This document shows, in pieces, positions 12,430 through 33,699 of a stretch of DNA of 64,000 bases. The notes under the pieces were generated by a model. It saw only the letters and a list, made by a program, of their open reading frames with translations. It was not told the origin of the DNA and did no database searches. Positions within the stretch are counted from its first letter, which is position 1; each line of letters starts with the position of its first letter. Origin of the DNA: Deltaproteobacteria bacterium (GTDB lineage: Bacteria; Desulfobacterota_D; UBA1144; Nemesobacterales; UBA2774). The position numbers and the translations under genes are program-made. The stretch covers positions 62,001 to 126,000 of the forward strand of contig JAVKFU010000020.1 of the NCBI GenBank assembly GCA_040223695.1, read 5' to 3'.

Positions 12430-14709
12430 TTATTTAATCGCCGCGGTCTTCTCGTTTTCTTTTTTTCCGCCGCCCGCCTTATCGTTTTCTTTTGATTCGG
12501 CCACGTTTCCATTCTCGTCGATACCCTTTATGTTTCTGCACCCGGGATATCCCGTGCAGCCCAGAAACTTCCCGAACCTCCCTTTCCTGACGGCCATGGG
12601 TTTACCGCATTTCTCGCATTTTATATCTTCCCTTATTTCGGGCTCGGCCTTCTCTATTATTTTAATATTGCCGTCGGGACCGTATTCGAACGCCTTAGCG
12701 TTCTTGCAGTCCGGATAGCGCGTGCACGCTATAAACTCGCCTCTCCTGCTTTTCTTTATAGCCATAGGGGCGCCGCACTTGTCGCATTTTATGTCCTCTC
12801 TTACAACAGGCTCAGCCCTCTCAATCACCTTGATATTACCGTCGGGATCGTATTCAAACGCCTTAGCGTTCTTGCAGTCCGGGTACCTGGAGCACGAAAG
12901 AAATTCACCGTTCCTGCCCCATTTTATTATCATTTTGGCTCCGCAGTTATCACAGTCTATGTCGGTCGGAAGCCCGTCCCTCTTGAGGCTCTTCATCGTG
13001 TCCTGCGCTTTATCGAGGCGAGTGGAAAAATCCTGATAGAAAGCCTTCAGAAGCTCGACCCAGTTGACGTTTCCTTCCTCCACGTTATCCAGCTTCTCCT
13101 CCATGTCAGCCGTGAACTGAACGTCCATGATCTCGGGAAAGCCATCGATCAGGAGATCGTTTACCGAGCAGCCGAGCAAGGTGGGCTTCAGTCTGTTCTT
13201 CTCCTTGTTGACGTACTGACGATCCTGGATTGTGGAAAGGATAGAGGCATACGTCGACGGCCTTCCCACCCCCTTCTCCTCAAGCTCCTTTACAAGCGAG
13301 CTTTCAGTGAATCTGGGCGGGGGCTGGGTAAAATGCTGTTTGCCCTCCAGGTTGATAAGGTCAAGCGCCTCATCCTTTGAGACGTCCGGGAGCTTCCTCA
13401 TTTCCTCCTTCTCTTTCTGCTCCTCCTCCTCTTCCTTGCCCTCCAGATAGACGGCGGAAAACCCCGGGAATTTTACTATCGATCCGGTGGCGCGAAAAAC
13501 ACCCTTTCCGGCCCTGATTTCAAACGTAGTCTGATCGTAGATAACGGGCTTCATCTGGGAGGCCACAAATCTTTGCCACACCAGTTTGTAAAGCTGGTAT
13601 TCGTCGCCGGAAAGATACTCCTTAATGGAGTCCGGATGCTTGGCCGCGTATGTGGGCCTTATAGCCTCATGCGCGTCCTGAGCTGATTTCTTTACCTTGA
13701 ACGTATTCGCTTTTGAGGGCAGATATTCATTTCCGTATGTTTCCTTTATAAGCGCTCTTGCCTCTTTGAGCGCGTTGTCGGAGATCCTTACAGAGTCCGT
13801 TCTCATATAGGTAATAAGACCGACGGGTCCTTCCTCTCCCAGGTCTTTACCCTCATAGAGCTTTTGTGCCACTGACATCGTTTTCTTTACGGGAAACCTC
13901 AGTTTTCTCGAGGCTTCCTGTTGAAGAGTGCTTGTAATAAACGGGGGGAGAGCGTTCTTTTTCCGCTCCTTTCGTTCTATTGAATCAACTATGAATGCTT
14001 CATTTTTCAGCGCTTCGACAATTGAGTTAGCCTCCGACTCACCTGAAATCGAAACCTTTTCCCCGTCGAATCTTGAAAGATTGGCTATAAAAGAAGAATC
14101 CGGCTCATCCTGAGAACGTTTTAATTCGGACTCGATTGTCCAGTACTCTTCGGTTTTAAAGGCCTCTATCTTCCGTTCCCTTTCGACTACCACCCTGAGC
14201 GCAACACTCTGCACCCGCCCGGCGCTGAGGCCCTTTCTGACCTTTCTCCAGAGAATGGGACTAACCTGATATCCCACAAGGCGGTCGAGTACTCTCCTTG
14301 CCTGCTGGGCTTCAAACCTGTCCTGGCTCAGTGTTGTGGGGTTGTTAATAGAATCCTTTACCGCGTTTTCGGTGATTTCATGGATAAGAATTCTGTGGGA
14401 TTTATCCCTTATTTTGAGTTTATCTGCTATATGCCACGCTATCGCCTCACCCTCACGGTCGGGGTCGGAAGCCAGATACACCTTTTCGGCGTCCTTGGCG
14501 GCTTTCTTGAGCTGATTTAGATATTTACTCTTACCCTTTATAACCACGTATTGGGGATTGAAATCGTTTTCTATATCCACACCCAGCTTGCTGCTCGGTA
14601 GGTCTATAAGATGTCCCGAAGACGCTTCTACATCAAAGCTCTTTCCCAGAAATTTCTTTATGGTCTTGGCCTTGGCAGGGGATTCCACAATTACAAGAGA
14701 CTTAGCCAT
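12430..14709 (-). CDS. topA: DNA topoisomerase I with three C-terminal zinc ribbons
   Basis: The 759-residue type IA topoisomerase starts with Toprim (VIVESPAKAKTIKKFLG; acidic SDPDREGEAIAWH at 81-93). It has the active-site tyrosine Y301 in LITYMRTDSVRIS and the conserved RPSTYASIL region. Three C4 zinc ribbons follow at about 586-613, 642-669 and 698-725, then a Lys/Glu-rich tail. It relaxes negative supercoils. The ATG at 14709 has AGGAGG four bases upstream. The first two ribbons plus linker are near-identical tandem copies of 56 codons, described separately. Confidence 0.97.
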   Translation of the reverse strand: MAKSLVIVESPAKAKTIKKFLGKSFDVEASSGHLIDLPSSKLGVDIENDFNPQYVVIKGKSKYLNQLKKAAKDAEKVYLASDPDREGEAIAWHIADKLKIRDKSHRILIHEITENAVKDSINNPTTLSQDRFEAQQARRVLDRLVGYQVSPILWRKVRKGLSAGRVQSVALRVVVERERKIEAFKTEEYWTIESELKRSQDEPDSSFIANLSRFDGEKVSISGESEANSIVEALKNEAFIVDSIERKERKKNALPPFITSTLQQEASRKLRFPVKKTMSVAQKLYEGKDLGEEGPVGLITYMRTDSVRISDNALKEARALIKETYGNEYLPSKANTFKVKKSAQDAHEAIRPTYAAKHPDSIKEYLSGDEYQLYKLVWQRFVASQMKPVIYDQTTFEIRAGKGVFRATGSIVKFPGFSAVYLEGKEEEEEQKEKEEMRKLPDVSKDEALDLINLEGKQHFTQPPPRFTESSLVKELEEKGVGRPSTYASILSTIQDRQYVNKEKNRLKPTLLGCSVNDLLIDGFPEIMDVQFTADMEEKLDNVEEGNVNWVELLKAFYQDFSTRLDKAQDTMKSLKRDGLPTDIDCDNCGAKMIIKWGRNGEFLSCSRYPDCKNAKAFEYDPDGNIKVIERAEPVVREDIKCDKCGAPMAIKKSRRGEFIACTRYPDCKNAKAFEYGPDGNIKIIEKAEPEIREDIKCEKCGKPMAVRKGRFGKFLGCTGYPGCRNIKGIDENGNVAESKENDKAGGGKKENEKTAAIK
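12619..12954 (-). repeat. Tandem 168-bp duplication inside topA (zinc-ribbon module)
   Basis: Two 168-bp units (12787-12954 and 12619-12786) encode a zinc ribbon plus its linker. Stretches such as CRYPDC/CTRYPDC-KNAKAFEY and DGNIK are shared, and DNA identity is visible, e.g. ccttagcgttcttgcagtcc at both 12693 and 12861 (168 apart). The third ribbon (12535-12618) is more diverged. The high DNA identity suggests a fairly recent duplication or gene conversion. Confidence 0.85.
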
Positions 14710-14892
14710 TCAACCTCCTTTTTGTCCCAATCGCTTTATTTTCTAAAAATGTAATCATAATCGGCTCCGTGTCAATCACGATTAACGGTAATTAAGGCAT
14801 TGTACCTGAATTTATTCTTATGCAAATTCCATCCGCTGCGTAAAAGGGCGCTCCGAGATAGCCGAGCCCCTATTTATAAAAGTTCTACTAAG

Positions 14893-14928
14893 TATGTCAA
14901 TTTCATGGCATATCAAATTCATGACATA
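14893..14928. promoter_or_regulatory. Three TATGTCA-type half-sites (possible activator site) in the 435-bp topA-luxR gap
   Basis: TATGTCA (14893-14899), its near-inverted copy TGGCATA (14906-14912) and an exact inverted copy TGACATA (14922-14928) lie in a cluster; the latter two also form an 11-base near-direct repeat (TTCATGrCATA) 16 bases apart. This lies 200-240 bp upstream of the start site predicted for the LuxR gene at 15145, a normal distance for a sigma-54 activator site. The rest of the gap 14710-15104 shows no gene and no further clear signal. The function is inferred. Confidence 0.45.
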
Positions 14929-15104
14929 ATTTGTAACATTCTCCCCAGATTTGTCCTACTTTCAGGGTGAATATTCAAAATTTAAATTATTCTTAATTAT
15001 CCGCTGTCAAGCGCGGCTTCAAACTTTCACGCGTAACTATCTCTCAATCAACGATATTCTCATCGCATTCCATAATCCTCATCTGGTATTTAAAAATGAT
15101 TCTC

Positions 15105-15121
15105 CCGGCACAATAATTGCA
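15105..15121 (+). promoter_or_regulatory. Sigma-54-type -24/-12 promoter before the luxR-type gene
   Basis: The sequence CCGGCACAATAATTGCA has GG (15107-15108) and GC (15119-15120) exactly 10 bases apart and resembles the consensus TGGCACG-N4-TTGCW, with TTGCA intact and mismatches at the first T and last G of the -24 box. The predicted start near 15132 leaves a 13-base leader that contains the AGGAG of the gene. Confidence 0.5.
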
Positions 15122-15144
15122 CTTTTGATTTTACAGGAGAAATC

Positions 15145-15759
15145 ATGCCCGAAAATAATATTAAACTTCTAATAGCATCCAACTCCAAGCTTTTTCTGGA
15201 TGGAATACGGAAGGTCCTGGAGAATGAAGACAATATTGAAATAATAGCGGAAACTTTAAATATAAAAGAATTAAACCGTTTGCTTAAAGATTACAGCCCC
15301 GAAGTCGTATTCATAGATAACAGAGAGTTTAAGCTCAACATCGAAAAACTGCTGCGCTCAAGAATTATAAAGAACAACCAAGTCAGGATTATCCTCTTTA
15401 CACAGGGAAATGCAGAGGGCCAGGATTCACCGAACCTGGTAAACGTAAATCATGAAACGACTACTTCGGAGCTCGTAAGCATAATTAAATGCGGAACCGG
15501 AGAGAAAAAAGACTCGGGCGGCGCGGGGCAGGATAAAATTGAATATCAAAATATTACAAAAATGGAACACAGGATTATAAAATTTATTGCCGCGGGCGAC
15601 AGCAATAAAGAGATAGCCGAGAAGCTCTCGATCAGTGAAAAGACGGTTAAGGCTCACGTATCCAGCATATTTGAAAAACTAAATATTAATAACAGGTATC
15701 AGCTTATGGTGTTCGGGAGGAGAAACAAGAAGAATCTGGAAATGTATGTTCAGGTATGA
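15145..15759 (+). CDS. LuxR/NarL-type regulator with degenerate receiver domain
   Basis: The 204 residues have a receiver-like domain (1-120) and a C-terminal LuxR helix-turn-helix (about 138-195) with GDSNKEIAEKLSISEKTVKA. The acidic Mg-binding pair after strand 1 is replaced (A11-S12-N13 in place of the usual ADD), and the conserved Lys of strand 5 is absent, though an Asp (D58) sits at the phospho-acceptor place. Phosphorylation by a normal kinase is therefore unlikely. AGGAG precedes the ATG. The gene ends inside the end of ugd (10-bp convergent overlap). It sits behind a sigma-54-like promoter, and no histidine kinase is nearby. Confidence 0.85.
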   Translation: MPENNIKLLIASNSKLFLDGIRKVLENEDNIEIIAETLNIKELNRLLKDYSPEVVFIDNREFKLNIEKLLRSRIIKNNQVRIILFTQGNAEGQDSPNLVNVNHETTTSELVSIIKCGTGEKKDSGGAGQDKIEYQNITKMEHRIIKFIAAGDSNKEIAEKLSISEKTVKAHVSSIFEKLNINNRYQLMVFGRRNKKNLEMYVQV

Positions 15760-17054
15760 ATCCCCACACCGTGATATTTAAAACCCGCTTCTTCGAGCTT
15801 TTTCGGATCATAAAGATTTCTGCCGTCAAAGATTACATAATCTTCCATGAGTTCTTTCATTTTGAGAAAGTCCGGCTGTCTGTACTCGCTCCATTCCGTG
15901 CTTATCACAAGGGCGTGCGACCCCTGACAGCTATCGTAATTCGATTCAGCGTAACCGACCTTGTCACCGAAATAGCTCCTCGCGTTATCCATTGCCACCG
16001 GGTCGTGCACCACTACCTGAGCCCCGTGAGAGATAAGCTTGTCGATAATATATAAAGAAGGCGCTTCCCTTATATCGTCCGTCTGGGGTTTGAAAGACAG
16101 TCCCCAGACCCCGACTTTCTTGCCGCCAAGCTCGCCGCCGAAATGATTTTTGATTTTTTCCCAGAATAGCTCTTTCTGTCGAGTGTTCACTTCGTCAGTC
16201 GCTTTGCATACCTTCAAATCATATCCGAGGCCCGAGGCTGTGCTGAGCAGCGCCTTTACGTCCTTGGGGAAGCAGGACCCGCCGTAACCTATGCCGGGGA
16301 ATAGGAAATGACGCCCTATTCTCGAGTCCGAACCTATCGCTACCCTTATCTCCGATATATCAGCTCCTACAAGCTCGCACAGGTTAGCGACGTCGTTCAT
16401 AAACGAAATCCTGGTTGCCAGCATTGCGTTCGCGGTATATTTCGCCAGCTCGGATGATCTGATAGAAACAACGATCGCCCTGTCGCCCGATCTCATGAAG
16501 GCCGAATAAAGCTCCTTCAGTATCCCGCCGACCGCGGGCTTATCGACCCCTATTATCACTCTGTCGGGCTTCATGAAATCCTCGACGGCGGCCCCTTCTT
16601 TTAAAAACTCGGGATTTGACGCCACATCGAACTCCGTGTCGGTAGTTTTCCTGATTTCCTCGCGAATCATCTCTGTTGTTCCCACGGGGACGGTACTCTT
16701 CGTAACCACAATTTTATAGTCATTAAGGTTTTCTCCGATGGACCGGGCGACACTGACCACCGCGTCCATGTTCGCTGAGCCGTCCTGGTTAGGAGGCGTG
16801 CCCACCGCGATGAAAACGATAAAAGAATTTCTTATCGCGGAGCCGATATCGGTCGTAAAATGCAGCCTGGACTCCTTCACGTTCTTCTTTACAATATCCT
16901 CGAGCCCGGGCTCATAAAACGGGATGCGGCCGTTTTTCAGGCTTTCTATTTTTTCCTCGTCTATATCCACGCAAATTACATTATTACCGCTTCCAGCCAG
17001 GCATGCTCCGGTGACCAGTCCTACGTAGCCTGTTCCGATTACGCTCAGATTCAT
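15750..17054 (-). CDS. ugd: UDP-glucose 6-dehydrogenase
   Basis: The 434 residues show the N-terminal NAD site (VIGTGYVGLVTG, 5-16), the central domain and the catalytic cysteine C261 in GIGYGGSCFPKD, plus SNPEFLKEG and the C-terminal GLSFKPQTDDIREAPS. It oxidises UDP-glucose to UDP-glucuronate for polysaccharide or LPS sugars. The start follows AGGAGA. It is a single gene flanked by two LuxR-type regulators, which might control exopolysaccharide production; that link is only positional. No glycosyltransferase genes are adjacent. A GDP-mannose or UDP-ManNAc dehydrogenase is less likely given the motif set. Confidence 0.93.
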   Translation of the reverse strand: MNLSVIGTGYVGLVTGACLAGSGNNVICVDIDEEKIESLKNGRIPFYEPGLEDIVKKNVKESRLHFTTDIGSAIRNSFIVFIAVGTPPNQDGSANMDAVVSVARSIGENLNDYKIVVTKSTVPVGTTEMIREEIRKTTDTEFDVASNPEFLKEGAAVEDFMKPDRVIIGVDKPAVGGILKELYSAFMRSGDRAIVVSIRSSELAKYTANAMLATRISFMNDVANLCELVGADISEIRVAIGSDSRIGRHFLFPGIGYGGSCFPKDVKALLSTASGLGYDLKVCKATDEVNTRQKELFWEKIKNHFGGELGGKKVGVWGLSFKPQTDDIREAPSLYIIDKLISHGAQVVVHDPVAMDNARSYFGDKVGYAESNYDSCQGSHALVISTEWSEYRQPDFLKMKELMEDYVIFDGRNLYDPKKLEEAGFKYHGVGIHT

Positions 17055-17219: not shown

Positions 17220-17903
17220 TTAACTCACCAATCCGTGGCGGAATCCGAACAGGATGAGCTCGGACCTGTTCTTAACCTTGAGCTTTCTGAATACCTTATA
17301 CAGATGAAACTTGACCGTCTTCTCGCTTATATACAGCTCATTCGCGACGTCTTTATTCGTGTAGCCGTTAAGAACCAGTTTTACAATCTTTATTTCGGTT
17401 TCGGTGAGATCGTATATCTCCCCTTTGCCTTTAATCCCCTTTGTCGAATATGTCGTGCCGTCAAGCACCTTGCCCATCAACTTTCTCTCGACCCAAAGCT
17501 CTCCGTTATAGACCGAATTTACGGCTTTTATCAGATGATTCGAATCGGTGTCTTTGACAAGGTAGCCCCTGACGCCGGATCTAATGGCGTTTATGAGCAG
17601 GTTTTCGTTGTAGTCACTATCTATTATTAATATAACCTTCGCTTCCCTGTTCTTTTTCATCAAGCCCAGTATCCTGTTCAGGTTCAGGCCCTTGATTTCC
17701 ACATCGAGAAGCAGGATATCGAAGACCGATTCCTCGCAGGACTGAATCAGGTCAATCAGGTTGGAAACCCTGGAAACGACGTCTATGCTCTGATTCTCTT
17801 CCAGTATCTTTGAAATTCCCTCCCTCAACAACGGGAAATTACACGCCACCGCCGTCTTTATGGATTCGGCATTATTGTTCGAAGCTGCTTTCTGCTGTGA
17901 CAT
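17220..17903 (-). CDS. LuxR/NarL-type response regulator with altered acidic pocket
   Basis: The 227 residues have a receiver domain (about 15-135) with phospho-acceptor D67 (ILLLDVEI) and K117 (GYLVKDT), and a LuxR helix-turn-helix (about 165-222) with GYTNKDVANELYISEKTVKFH. The acidic pair normally at ADDH is replaced by A20-C21-N22, so Mg binding should be impaired although Asp and Lys remain. The HTH closely resembles that of the regulator at 15145 (NKxxAxxLxISEKTVKxH), suggesting paralogues. A strong promoter with an overlapping inverted repeat lies upstream. No histidine kinase is nearby. Confidence 0.88.
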   Translation of the reverse strand: MSQQKAASNNNAESIKTAVACNFPLLREGISKILEENQSIDVVSRVSNLIDLIQSCEESVFDILLLDVEIKGLNLNRILGLMKKNREAKVILIIDSDYNENLLINAIRSGVRGYLVKDTDSNHLIKAVNSVYNGELWVERKLMGKVLDGTTYSTKGIKGKGEIYDLTETEIKIVKLVLNGYTNKDVANELYISEKTVKFHLYKVFRKLKVKNRSELILFGFRHGLVS

Positions 17904-32166: not shown

Positions 32167-33699
32167 ATGAGTACGAATTTAAGCCAGACTACTTCACAAA
32201 GGCAGGTACTTCAGCAGCGGCTCATCCTGACGCAGGAGCTTCAGCTTTTCCTCAAGCTCATTCAGATGAATACACTTGAGCTTAAGGATTACCTGGAGGA
32301 ACAGCTAATCGAAAATCCCACCCTAGAGGAAACGCAGGAAACCGAAGACAATAAGGAAAACGGCTCAGCAGACGATGAAATCGACCTCGGGAAATTAGCC
32401 GAGGACCGCCTGTTCAAGGATCAAAGCAGCGACGTACCCCACTACGCCTCGAAAGAATTCGCAGACGACAGCGATGATTCTGCCACCTGGGAGAACAGAG
32501 TAAGCTCGACGGATTCGCTGACCGACCACCTGAGGTGGCAGCTGGAGGTTTCGGATTTTACCCATGAAGAAAAAAAGATAGCATCGATAATTATAGGCAA
32601 TACGAATGAAGACGGATATCTTGAGCTGGATATCGACGGCATTGCGGATATCTATCTGGAAGAGACGAAAAACCAGGATAGCGAATCCGAGCATAAACCC
32701 CAGGAAGATGAAAACGGGAAGAGCCGGGATACCGAAACAATTACTGACAGGCAGATGCTGGAGGAAAAAATCAAAGAGGTCCTGTACACTATTCAATCCA
32801 CATTTGATCCCACCGGAACGTGCTCAAGAAGCCTCGGGGAGTGCCTGAGGATGCAGGCGCTGGATTTGGGATATAAAGAGGACAGCGTCGAGCTAAATCT
32901 GATTGATAACTGTTTAGAGGATATGGATAAAAATGGCTTGCCCGAAATGGCGGAAAGGCTCGGACTGCCCGTAGAAAAAGTTAAAGACGCGTTTTCAGTC
33001 ATCTCCTCTCTAGAGCCCCGACCCGGCAGGCCGTTTTTTAAAAGAGACGCGGAGAAATATATTGTCGCCGACTTCTATGTGTACAAAATGGGCAACGAGC
33101 TTCAGGTGCAGCTCAACCGCGACTTCCCGAAGGTCAGGATCAGCAACTACTACAGAAATCTACTGAAAAAGGAAAAGACCCTGCCCCCGGACGCCAAACA
33201 GTTCATAAGGGAGAAGATCGAAGCCGCGCAGAGGATAATGAAGTGTCTTGACGAAAGGGAAGCCGCCGTAAAGAAAATCATCACAAAAATTGTCGACGTC
33301 CAGAAAGATTTTTTTGAACATGGGAAGGAGCATATAAAACCCCTTATCCTCAAAGACGTAGCTCAGGCTGTGGGCGTTCACGAGTCAACTGTCAGTCGTA
33401 TTACAAGCAGAAGGTATATACAGACACCGCAGGGCACAATCGAGCTTAAGTCGCTCTTCTCAAGAAAGATAGAGACATCGCACGGCAAGGAAGTATCGTT
33501 CGAAAAAGTAAAAGCGGTGATAAAGGAAATCATTGCCGGTGAAATGCCCGAAAGCCCCTATTCGGATGAAGATATATCAAAAATCCTTGAGAGAAGAAAT
33601 ATTAAAGTCGCCAGAAGGACTGTTGCAAAATACAGAAAAACACTTAAAATACCTTCTTCCTCGGTCAGAGCAAACCAGAAAAGGAAAAAAAACAGATGA
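32167..33699 (+). CDS. rpoN: RNA polymerase sigma-54 factor
   Basis: The 510 residues show region I, Gln/Leu-rich (QLFLKLIQMNTLELKDYLEEQLIENP), an acidic region II, the core-binding domain, the helix-turn-helix DVAQAVGVHESTVSRITSRRY and the RpoN box ARRTVAKYRK (482-491). It directs transcription from -24/-12 promoters with enhancer-binding ATPases, none of which is encoded here. It starts the rpoN-hpf-ptsN-hprK-rapZ cluster and overlaps hpf by 4 bp (ATGA). Confidence 0.98.
   Translation: MSTNLSQTTSQRQVLQQRLILTQELQLFLKLIQMNTLELKDYLEEQLIENPTLEETQETEDNKENGSADDEIDLGKLAEDRLFKDQSSDVPHYASKEFADDSDDSATWENRVSSTDSLTDHLRWQLEVSDFTHEEKKIASIIIGNTNEDGYLELDIDGIADIYLEETKNQDSESEHKPQEDENGKSRDTETITDRQMLEEKIKEVLYTIQSTFDPTGTCSRSLGECLRMQALDLGYKEDSVELNLIDNCLEDMDKNGLPEMAERLGLPVEKVKDAFSVISSLEPRPGRPFFKRDAEKYIVADFYVYKMGNELQVQLNRDFPKVRISNYYRNLLKKEKTLPPDAKQFIREKIEAAQRIMKCLDEREAAVKKIITKIVDVQKDFFEHGKEHIKPLILKDVAQAVGVHESTVSRITSRRYIQTPQGTIELKSLFSRKIETSHGKEVSFEKVKAVIKEIIAGEMPESPYSDEDISKILERRNIKVARRTVAKYRKTLKIPSSSVRANQKRKKNR

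Follow-up and report, generated by a model that had tools for sequence, protein, structure and literature searches.

A pseudo-receiver is defined by the absence of key catalytic residues, and the same source calls the switching mechanisms of bacterial pseudo-receivers a mystery (PMC12632262). Two regulators of the biofilm matrix, VpsT and CsgD, are both classed as pseudo-receivers (PMC12632262). Regulators of this type share their NarL/FixJ-type architecture and degenerate receiver with the protein described here, LuxR1 from an uncultured member of the Dadabacteria with a genome of 3.03 Mb, and VpsT is the best sequence match to LuxR1 in the PDB, over the HTH only. A further likeness is a possible link to c-di-GMP and to polysaccharide genes, which in the present case would come about by co-regulation. 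LuxR1 differs from VpsT and CsgD in being preceded by a sigma-54 promoter and in lacking helix alpha-4 in its structural model. The c-di-GMP motif of VpsT is W[F/L/M][T/S]R; binding of c-di-GMP in the manner of VpsT is ruled out for LuxR1, as the protein has no Trp and hence no such motif. BldM and WhiI of Streptomyces are also orphan, atypical NarL-type regulators, and can form a heterodimer (PMC4125116).

With respect to promoter control, the closest parallel is the PilS-PilR/sigma-54 system of Pseudomonas, Geobacter and Myxococcus, in which pilS-pilR likewise lie beside pilBTC, sigma-54 promoters precede the prepilin genes and the regulon reaches beyond pili. Effects of PilR beyond pilA have been described, and 54 predicted loci are cited for Geobacter (PMC6058289). 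Unlike the known PilR regulons, the system described here has a TGACA-N5-TGTCA site, for which PilR is the presumptive reader, and its putative regulon extends to c-di-GMP functions, to a sigma-70-family factor and to a LuxR protein with a pseudo-receiver. A literature search found no account of the transcription control of pili in Dadabacteria.

From sequence comparison we infer that a conserved sigma-54 promoter drives luxR1, which is apparently co-expressed with genes for type IV pili, c-di-GMP and polysaccharide, and that LuxR1 probably contributes to the control of surface attachment by how much of it is present rather than by phosphorylation. Our main reading, to which we assign a probability of about 0.6, is that an EBP, most likely PilR, switches on luxR1 via sigma-54 and that LuxR1 acts through abundance.

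The luxR1 locus

The luxR1 gene (positions 15145-15759, forward strand) lies in a stretch of 64,000 nucleotides, hereafter the window, and encodes a 204-residue NarL/LuxR-type regulator with a pseudo-receiver at residues 1-115 and a GerE HTH at residues 133-196. Domain searches assign the HTH with an E-value of 3.8e-18, and the receiver reaches only 17 bits against Response_reg, which is under the cut-off. The topA gene for DNA topoisomerase I (12430-14709, reverse strand) is divergent from luxR1, and its putative promoter (GGCATTNTACCTGAAT...TGCAAAT, 14796-14827, reverse strand) is separate from the luxR1 elements. Convergent with luxR1, and overlapping it by 10 bp, is ugd (15750-17054, reverse strand), which encodes a nucleotide-sugar (UDP-glucose) dehydrogenase (TIGR03026, 460 bits). 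The UDP-sugar acids produced by such dehydrogenases serve polysaccharide; the tie of luxR1 to this gene is positional only. A second NarL/LuxR-type protein is encoded by luxR2 (17220-17903, reverse strand) and has lost the acidic pair (CN) while keeping the Asp and the Lys; luxR2 is still present in genomes without luxR1. The sigma-54 gene rpoN is encoded 17 kb from luxR1, as the earlier note had it (32167-33699, forward strand; TIGR02395, 390 bits, over the cut-off).

Relatives of the locus were found by an alignment-based search, a single-protein search of named genomes having given no match. Those with names are mostly Candidatus Dadabacteria MAGs; two more distant ones are Bacterium HR37 and, by its record, a Deltaproteobacteria MAG. 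The gene order topA-luxR1-ugd-luxR2-dprA is kept in relatives of the same family, among which luxR1 diverges faster than the adjacent genes, identities for topA, ugd and luxR2 being mostly 70-85%.

The receiver of LuxR1

In LuxR1 the acidic pair is replaced (DD by SN), as is the strand-5 Lys (by His), both of which had been read correctly from the sequence at the outset, and Asp58 and T86 are kept. Lacking key catalytic residues, LuxR1 is thus a pseudo-receiver by the published definition (PMC12632262). The initial description of the protein as receiver-dead is a good prediction, but it overlooks Asp58, which is invariant among 17 members of the family. In these members an invariant S-x-S replaces the acidic pair, an equally invariant D-x-R motif (D-N-R) is found at the phospho-acceptor, and the T and K positions vary, the Lys being kept in some relatives. 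Some members have an Asp as the middle residue of S-x-S, by which one metal ligand may survive. The receiver (31-47% identity) evolves faster than the HTH (57-69%), and LuxR1 has about eight residues fewer than LuxR2 between beta4 and beta5. An AlphaFold2 model of LuxR1 (pLDDT 79, pTM 0.54) lacks alpha-4, which is a usual allosteric helix. Foldseek searches initiated with this model retrieve LiaR, VraR and NarL with E-values down to 2e-10, the domain arrangement being uncertain at a pTM of 0.54. The features discussed above define a pseudo-receiver family in which alpha-4 and the metal ligands have been lost and the Asp has been kept.

The missing metal ligands speak against phosphotransfer by LuxR1. 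It may nevertheless be supposed that Asp58 is still phosphorylated, by a small phosphodonor or with the help of a partner, or that LuxR1 forms a heterodimer with phosphorylated LuxR2 or another NarL-type protein. The invariance of Asp58 and the Lys of some relatives would fit such a scheme, as would the BldM/WhiI pair, which indicates that NarL-type pseudo-receivers can heterodimerise (PMC4125116). We nonetheless regard continued phosphorylation as improbable, given that most members have neither Mg ligand (one Asp of the pair survives in some), that the T and K positions are variable, that the model is without alpha-4 and that D-N-R appears to fit a structural contact between Asp and Arg better. 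Control of LuxR1 through its abundance is the reading we retain.

A conserved sigma-54 promoter

The element CGGCACAATAATTGCA (15106-15121, forward strand) agrees with the -24/-12 consensus TGGCAC-N5-TTGCW at 10 of 11 specified positions, its GG (15107-15108) and GC (15119-15120) being separated by ten nucleotides exactly where the earlier note had placed them. From the geometry of the -12 element alone, transcription would start at position 15132 (forward strand) and give a 13-base leader that includes the Shine-Dalgarno sequence AGGAGA (15135-15140). Across the window, 13 matches to the -24/-12 pattern with at most two mismatches are seen against 16.6 expected, and one-mismatch matches arise by chance elsewhere in it. 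The match of CGGCACAATAATTGCA taken alone is therefore weak, and since neither the promoter nor the upstream dyads are commoner than chance in the window, conservation was used as the test; it is conservation that makes the case strong.

Orthologues of luxR1 linked to topA are found in 11 genomes of the order, that is, our own and G002, G003, G004, G006, G008, G010, G012, G018, G026 and G034. The contig of G012 stops just before luxR1, which leaves ten genomes with usable upstream DNA, our own included. A matching -24/-12 element precedes the gene in eight of the ten (our own, G002, G003, G006, G010, G018, G026 and G034) at 38-86 bp from the start codon, and the chance of finding one at the same place is 0 to 0.03 per orthologue. 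It takes the form CGGCAC-N5-TTGC in our genome and four relatives of its family; the other three genomes, which belong to a different family, have TGGYAT-N5-TTGCA. Alignment of the promoter in relatives, which the earlier note had proposed, thus finds GG-N10-GC conserved. In G004 and G008, both members of genus g5, luxR1 is kept, no -24/-12 element was found upstream of it, and the topA-luxR1 intergenic region is longer, with unrelated DNA inserted. In G004 (C247; L027, L085) the expected sigma-54 promoter region upstream of luxR1 is taken up by the last part of a gene that, read by eye, has an IPTL-CTERM-like sorting tail.

Seven genomes of genus g2, which belongs to the same family as our genome, lack luxR1 and keep rpoN and topA. 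In the six that are readable far enough, the dehydrogenase gene comes directly after topA and the topA promoter-like block is kept, with neither the upstream site of luxR1, discussed below, nor the -24/-12 element present. As these two elements are lost with luxR1 while the topA promoter stays, they belong to luxR1 and not to topA.

The absence of any excess over chance in the window, together with genus g5, where the gene persists without the element, might be taken to mean that the -24/-12 match is fortuitous and that a housekeeping sigma factor transcribes luxR1. We give this almost no credence, as the element keeps the same position in eight orthologues amid intergenic DNA that is for the most part diverged, and as it disappeared together with luxR1 in g2; a housekeeping promoter for luxR1 was rejected on the conservation of the -24/-12 element. 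Our genome encodes rpoN and 14 EBPs, and the sigma-54 pattern BGGCAYN5TTGCW has 54 matches in it as compared with 11 for the reversed control, which indicates that sigma-54 is in use. These comparisons support a sigma-54 promoter ahead of luxR1, a NarL/LuxR regulator that is probably incompetent for phosphorylation.

The putative upstream activator site

Three TATGTCA-type half-sites had been reported upstream of the promoter, and all of them are present (TATGTCA at 14893, TGGCATA at 14906 and TGACATA at 14922). As a trio they are not conserved, the third alone being kept: the dyad TATGTCA-N6-TGGCATA (14893-14912, forward strand) is lineage-specific and is not retained in relatives, and the dyad CATATCA-N6-TGACATA (14909-14928, forward strand) is conserved only in its right arm. 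Dyads in the window number three against 1.25 expected, which is not significant by count, and TATGTCA dyads are not enriched as such either in the window or before other sigma-54 promoters. The trio is thus not the conserved activator site; the site that is conserved is a variant of a palindrome, TGACA-N5-TGTCA, found at other sigma-54 promoters.

In a three-genome alignment the best-conserved blocks are TGACRTAATTTGT and ATTTGTCC, and the conserved element consists of TGACRTAWTTTGT and a half-site 20 bp further on. The candidate activator site, TGACATAATTTGTAA (14922-14936, forward strand), is a near-copy of the palindrome with 9 of its 10 specified bases, and is followed at 20 bp by a second, in-phase half-site, TCCCCAGATTTGTCC (14942-14956, forward strand), which has the same offset in G002, G006 and G010. 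A scoring matrix made from the palindrome sites at other promoters, with luxR1 left out, gives 14922-14936 the top score in the luxR1 intergenic region. In all five genomes of the family that have data, 184-191 bp separate the top-scoring site from the start of the -24/-12 16-mer downstream (p 0 to 0.01 by shuffling). It lies at 147 in G018 (p 0.001), and in G026 and G034 the two half-sites are kept at the same places, which is not significant for either genome singly (p 0.09 and 0.32). The upstream site is thus about 100-200 bp from the promoter, as expected for sigma-54 activators, and is a putative binding site for an EBP, though imperfect and more distant than the other palindrome sites, which lie at 87-134 bp.

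The palindrome and PilR

Beyond the window, our genome was surveyed by pattern searches and through the DNA around the matches. Searching it with the conserved luxR1 block gave matches that lie some 100 bp ahead of other sigma-54 promoters, and these revealed the palindrome TGACA-N5-TGTCA. In the form TGRCA-N5-TGYCA it occurs eight times in the 3.03 Mb; four of the eight are followed at 72-119 bp by a strict -24/-12 element, and another precedes TGGTATAAATATTGCA. Over the 44 genomes of the order, the palindrome followed at 72-102 bp by a -24/-12 element gives 23 matches in 14 genomes, as against zero for the reversed pattern. Prepilin genes carry such a promoter in three genera (our genome G000, G029 and G030), and TGACATTTTTTGTCA before the prepilin pair of our genome is the same kind of site as TGACATAATTTGTAA before luxR1. 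Other targets encode a hybrid PAS kinase, an RR-PAS-GGDEF protein, an MshEN-RR protein and a BcsA-like/PilZ synthase. Palindrome promoters also occur in genomes without luxR1 (G022, G028, G029 and G030), and are absent from the seven g2 genomes.

Since the TATGTCA/TGACATA sites lie between two divergent genes, and inverted 7-mers are typically used by many regulators, they could, instead of being EBP sites, be operators through which LuxR1 regulates its own gene, or operators for topA. We hold this to be very doubtful: the conserved form matches the palindrome at sigma-54 promoters in the four genomes just named, which have no luxR1, and in g2 the sites are missing although topA is still there with its promoter. 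An EBP site remains our reading of the palindrome.

As for the EBP concerned, our genome has a pilB-pilT-pilC-pilS-pilR cluster (L264 2996-10365) whose PilS has a 6TM_PilS domain. The comparison of EBP co-occurrence covered PilR, for which nearly every luxR1-bearing genome has an orthologue (67-88% identity); none was found in G004, whose sister G008 has one. The orthologue is missing from all seven g2 genomes, which are also without luxR1. Most genomes with a palindrome site have PilR, the exceptions being G022, G026 and G030, which have palindrome promoters and in which a search at E<=1e-120 detected no orthologue of PilR; another EBP may therefore read the site there. Prepilin genes are the classical target of PilR, and PilR is most likely the reader of the palindrome, being the leading candidate on these patterns of occurrence. 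The contig of luxR1 carries no EBP genes, and the locus thus has no linked activator gene.

The promoter and its sites could also be real and the activator another of the 14 EBPs, such as one with PAS or GAF domains or a 48%-identical PilR paralogue, which would place luxR1 under another stimulus. The three genomes with palindrome promoters and no detectable PilR orthologue would agree with this, as would the weaker and more remote site of luxR1. It seems to us unlikely, if a serious contender, in view of the palindrome before prepilin genes in three genera and of the joint absence of PilR and luxR1 from g2.

A proposed surface programme

In the scheme that we infer, for the activator and start site as for the phosphorylation independence of LuxR1 and its role in the surface state, an AAA+ EBP, most likely PilR, would bind 14922-14936 together with the in-phase half-site (14942-14956) and loop to E-sigma-54 at 15106-15121, and transcription of luxR1 would begin at about 15132. 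The same activator would turn on the prepilins, the sigma-70-family factor and the c-di-GMP and polysaccharide functions. LuxR1, without a Mg-dependent phosphotransfer switch, would act through its concentration, or through a partner or a ligand other than phosphate, and would regulate the surface-attached state from a second tier. That a pseudo-receiver may be switched by sigma-54 control of its synthesis is a concrete proposal, and the sequence evidence supplies it with a candidate activator site and a candidate sigma-54 regulon. A broader formulation, which we advance tentatively and at somewhat short of even odds, is that a PilR-sigma-54 surface programme in Dadabacteria controls both a lineage-specific pseudo-receiver LuxR family, which has grown to many copies in some genomes and has its activity set only by synthesis, and the sigma-70-family factor, in a two-tier cascade that connects c-di-GMP and matrix polysaccharide with type IV pili.

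Among targets of the palindrome with a -24/-12 element, the sigma-70-family factor is the most widely kept, in ten genomes (C2, L270:602-1900 in our own). This suggests a cascade from sigma-54 to a sigma-70-family factor in these genomes, and such a putative cascade resembles the Rrp2-RpoN-RpoS pathway of Borrelia.

Strict -24/-12 elements occur at 56 places in our genome, many of them before genes that look by eye to be related to stress or the envelope (CsbD-like, CBS-domain, YciE/DUF892-like and OsmC-like), and sigma-54 may run a broad stress programme there. In three EBPs of the response-regulator type the loop that contacts sigma-54 reads GAFTDA or GSFT where GAFTGA is expected (C15:106850, C19:213197 and C18:433782). 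A TGACATATTTTGTGG site at C18:509014 lies a few kb from a gene for a GAF/PAS-type EBP (L008). Paralogues of luxR1 have undergone lineage-specific expansion in G034 and G026 (L180-L192), with about eight in G034 and some of the G026 copies having internal stop codons; L180 and L181 are preceded by a perfect -24/-12 element and no palindrome, and most of the other paralogues in these two genomes have neither.
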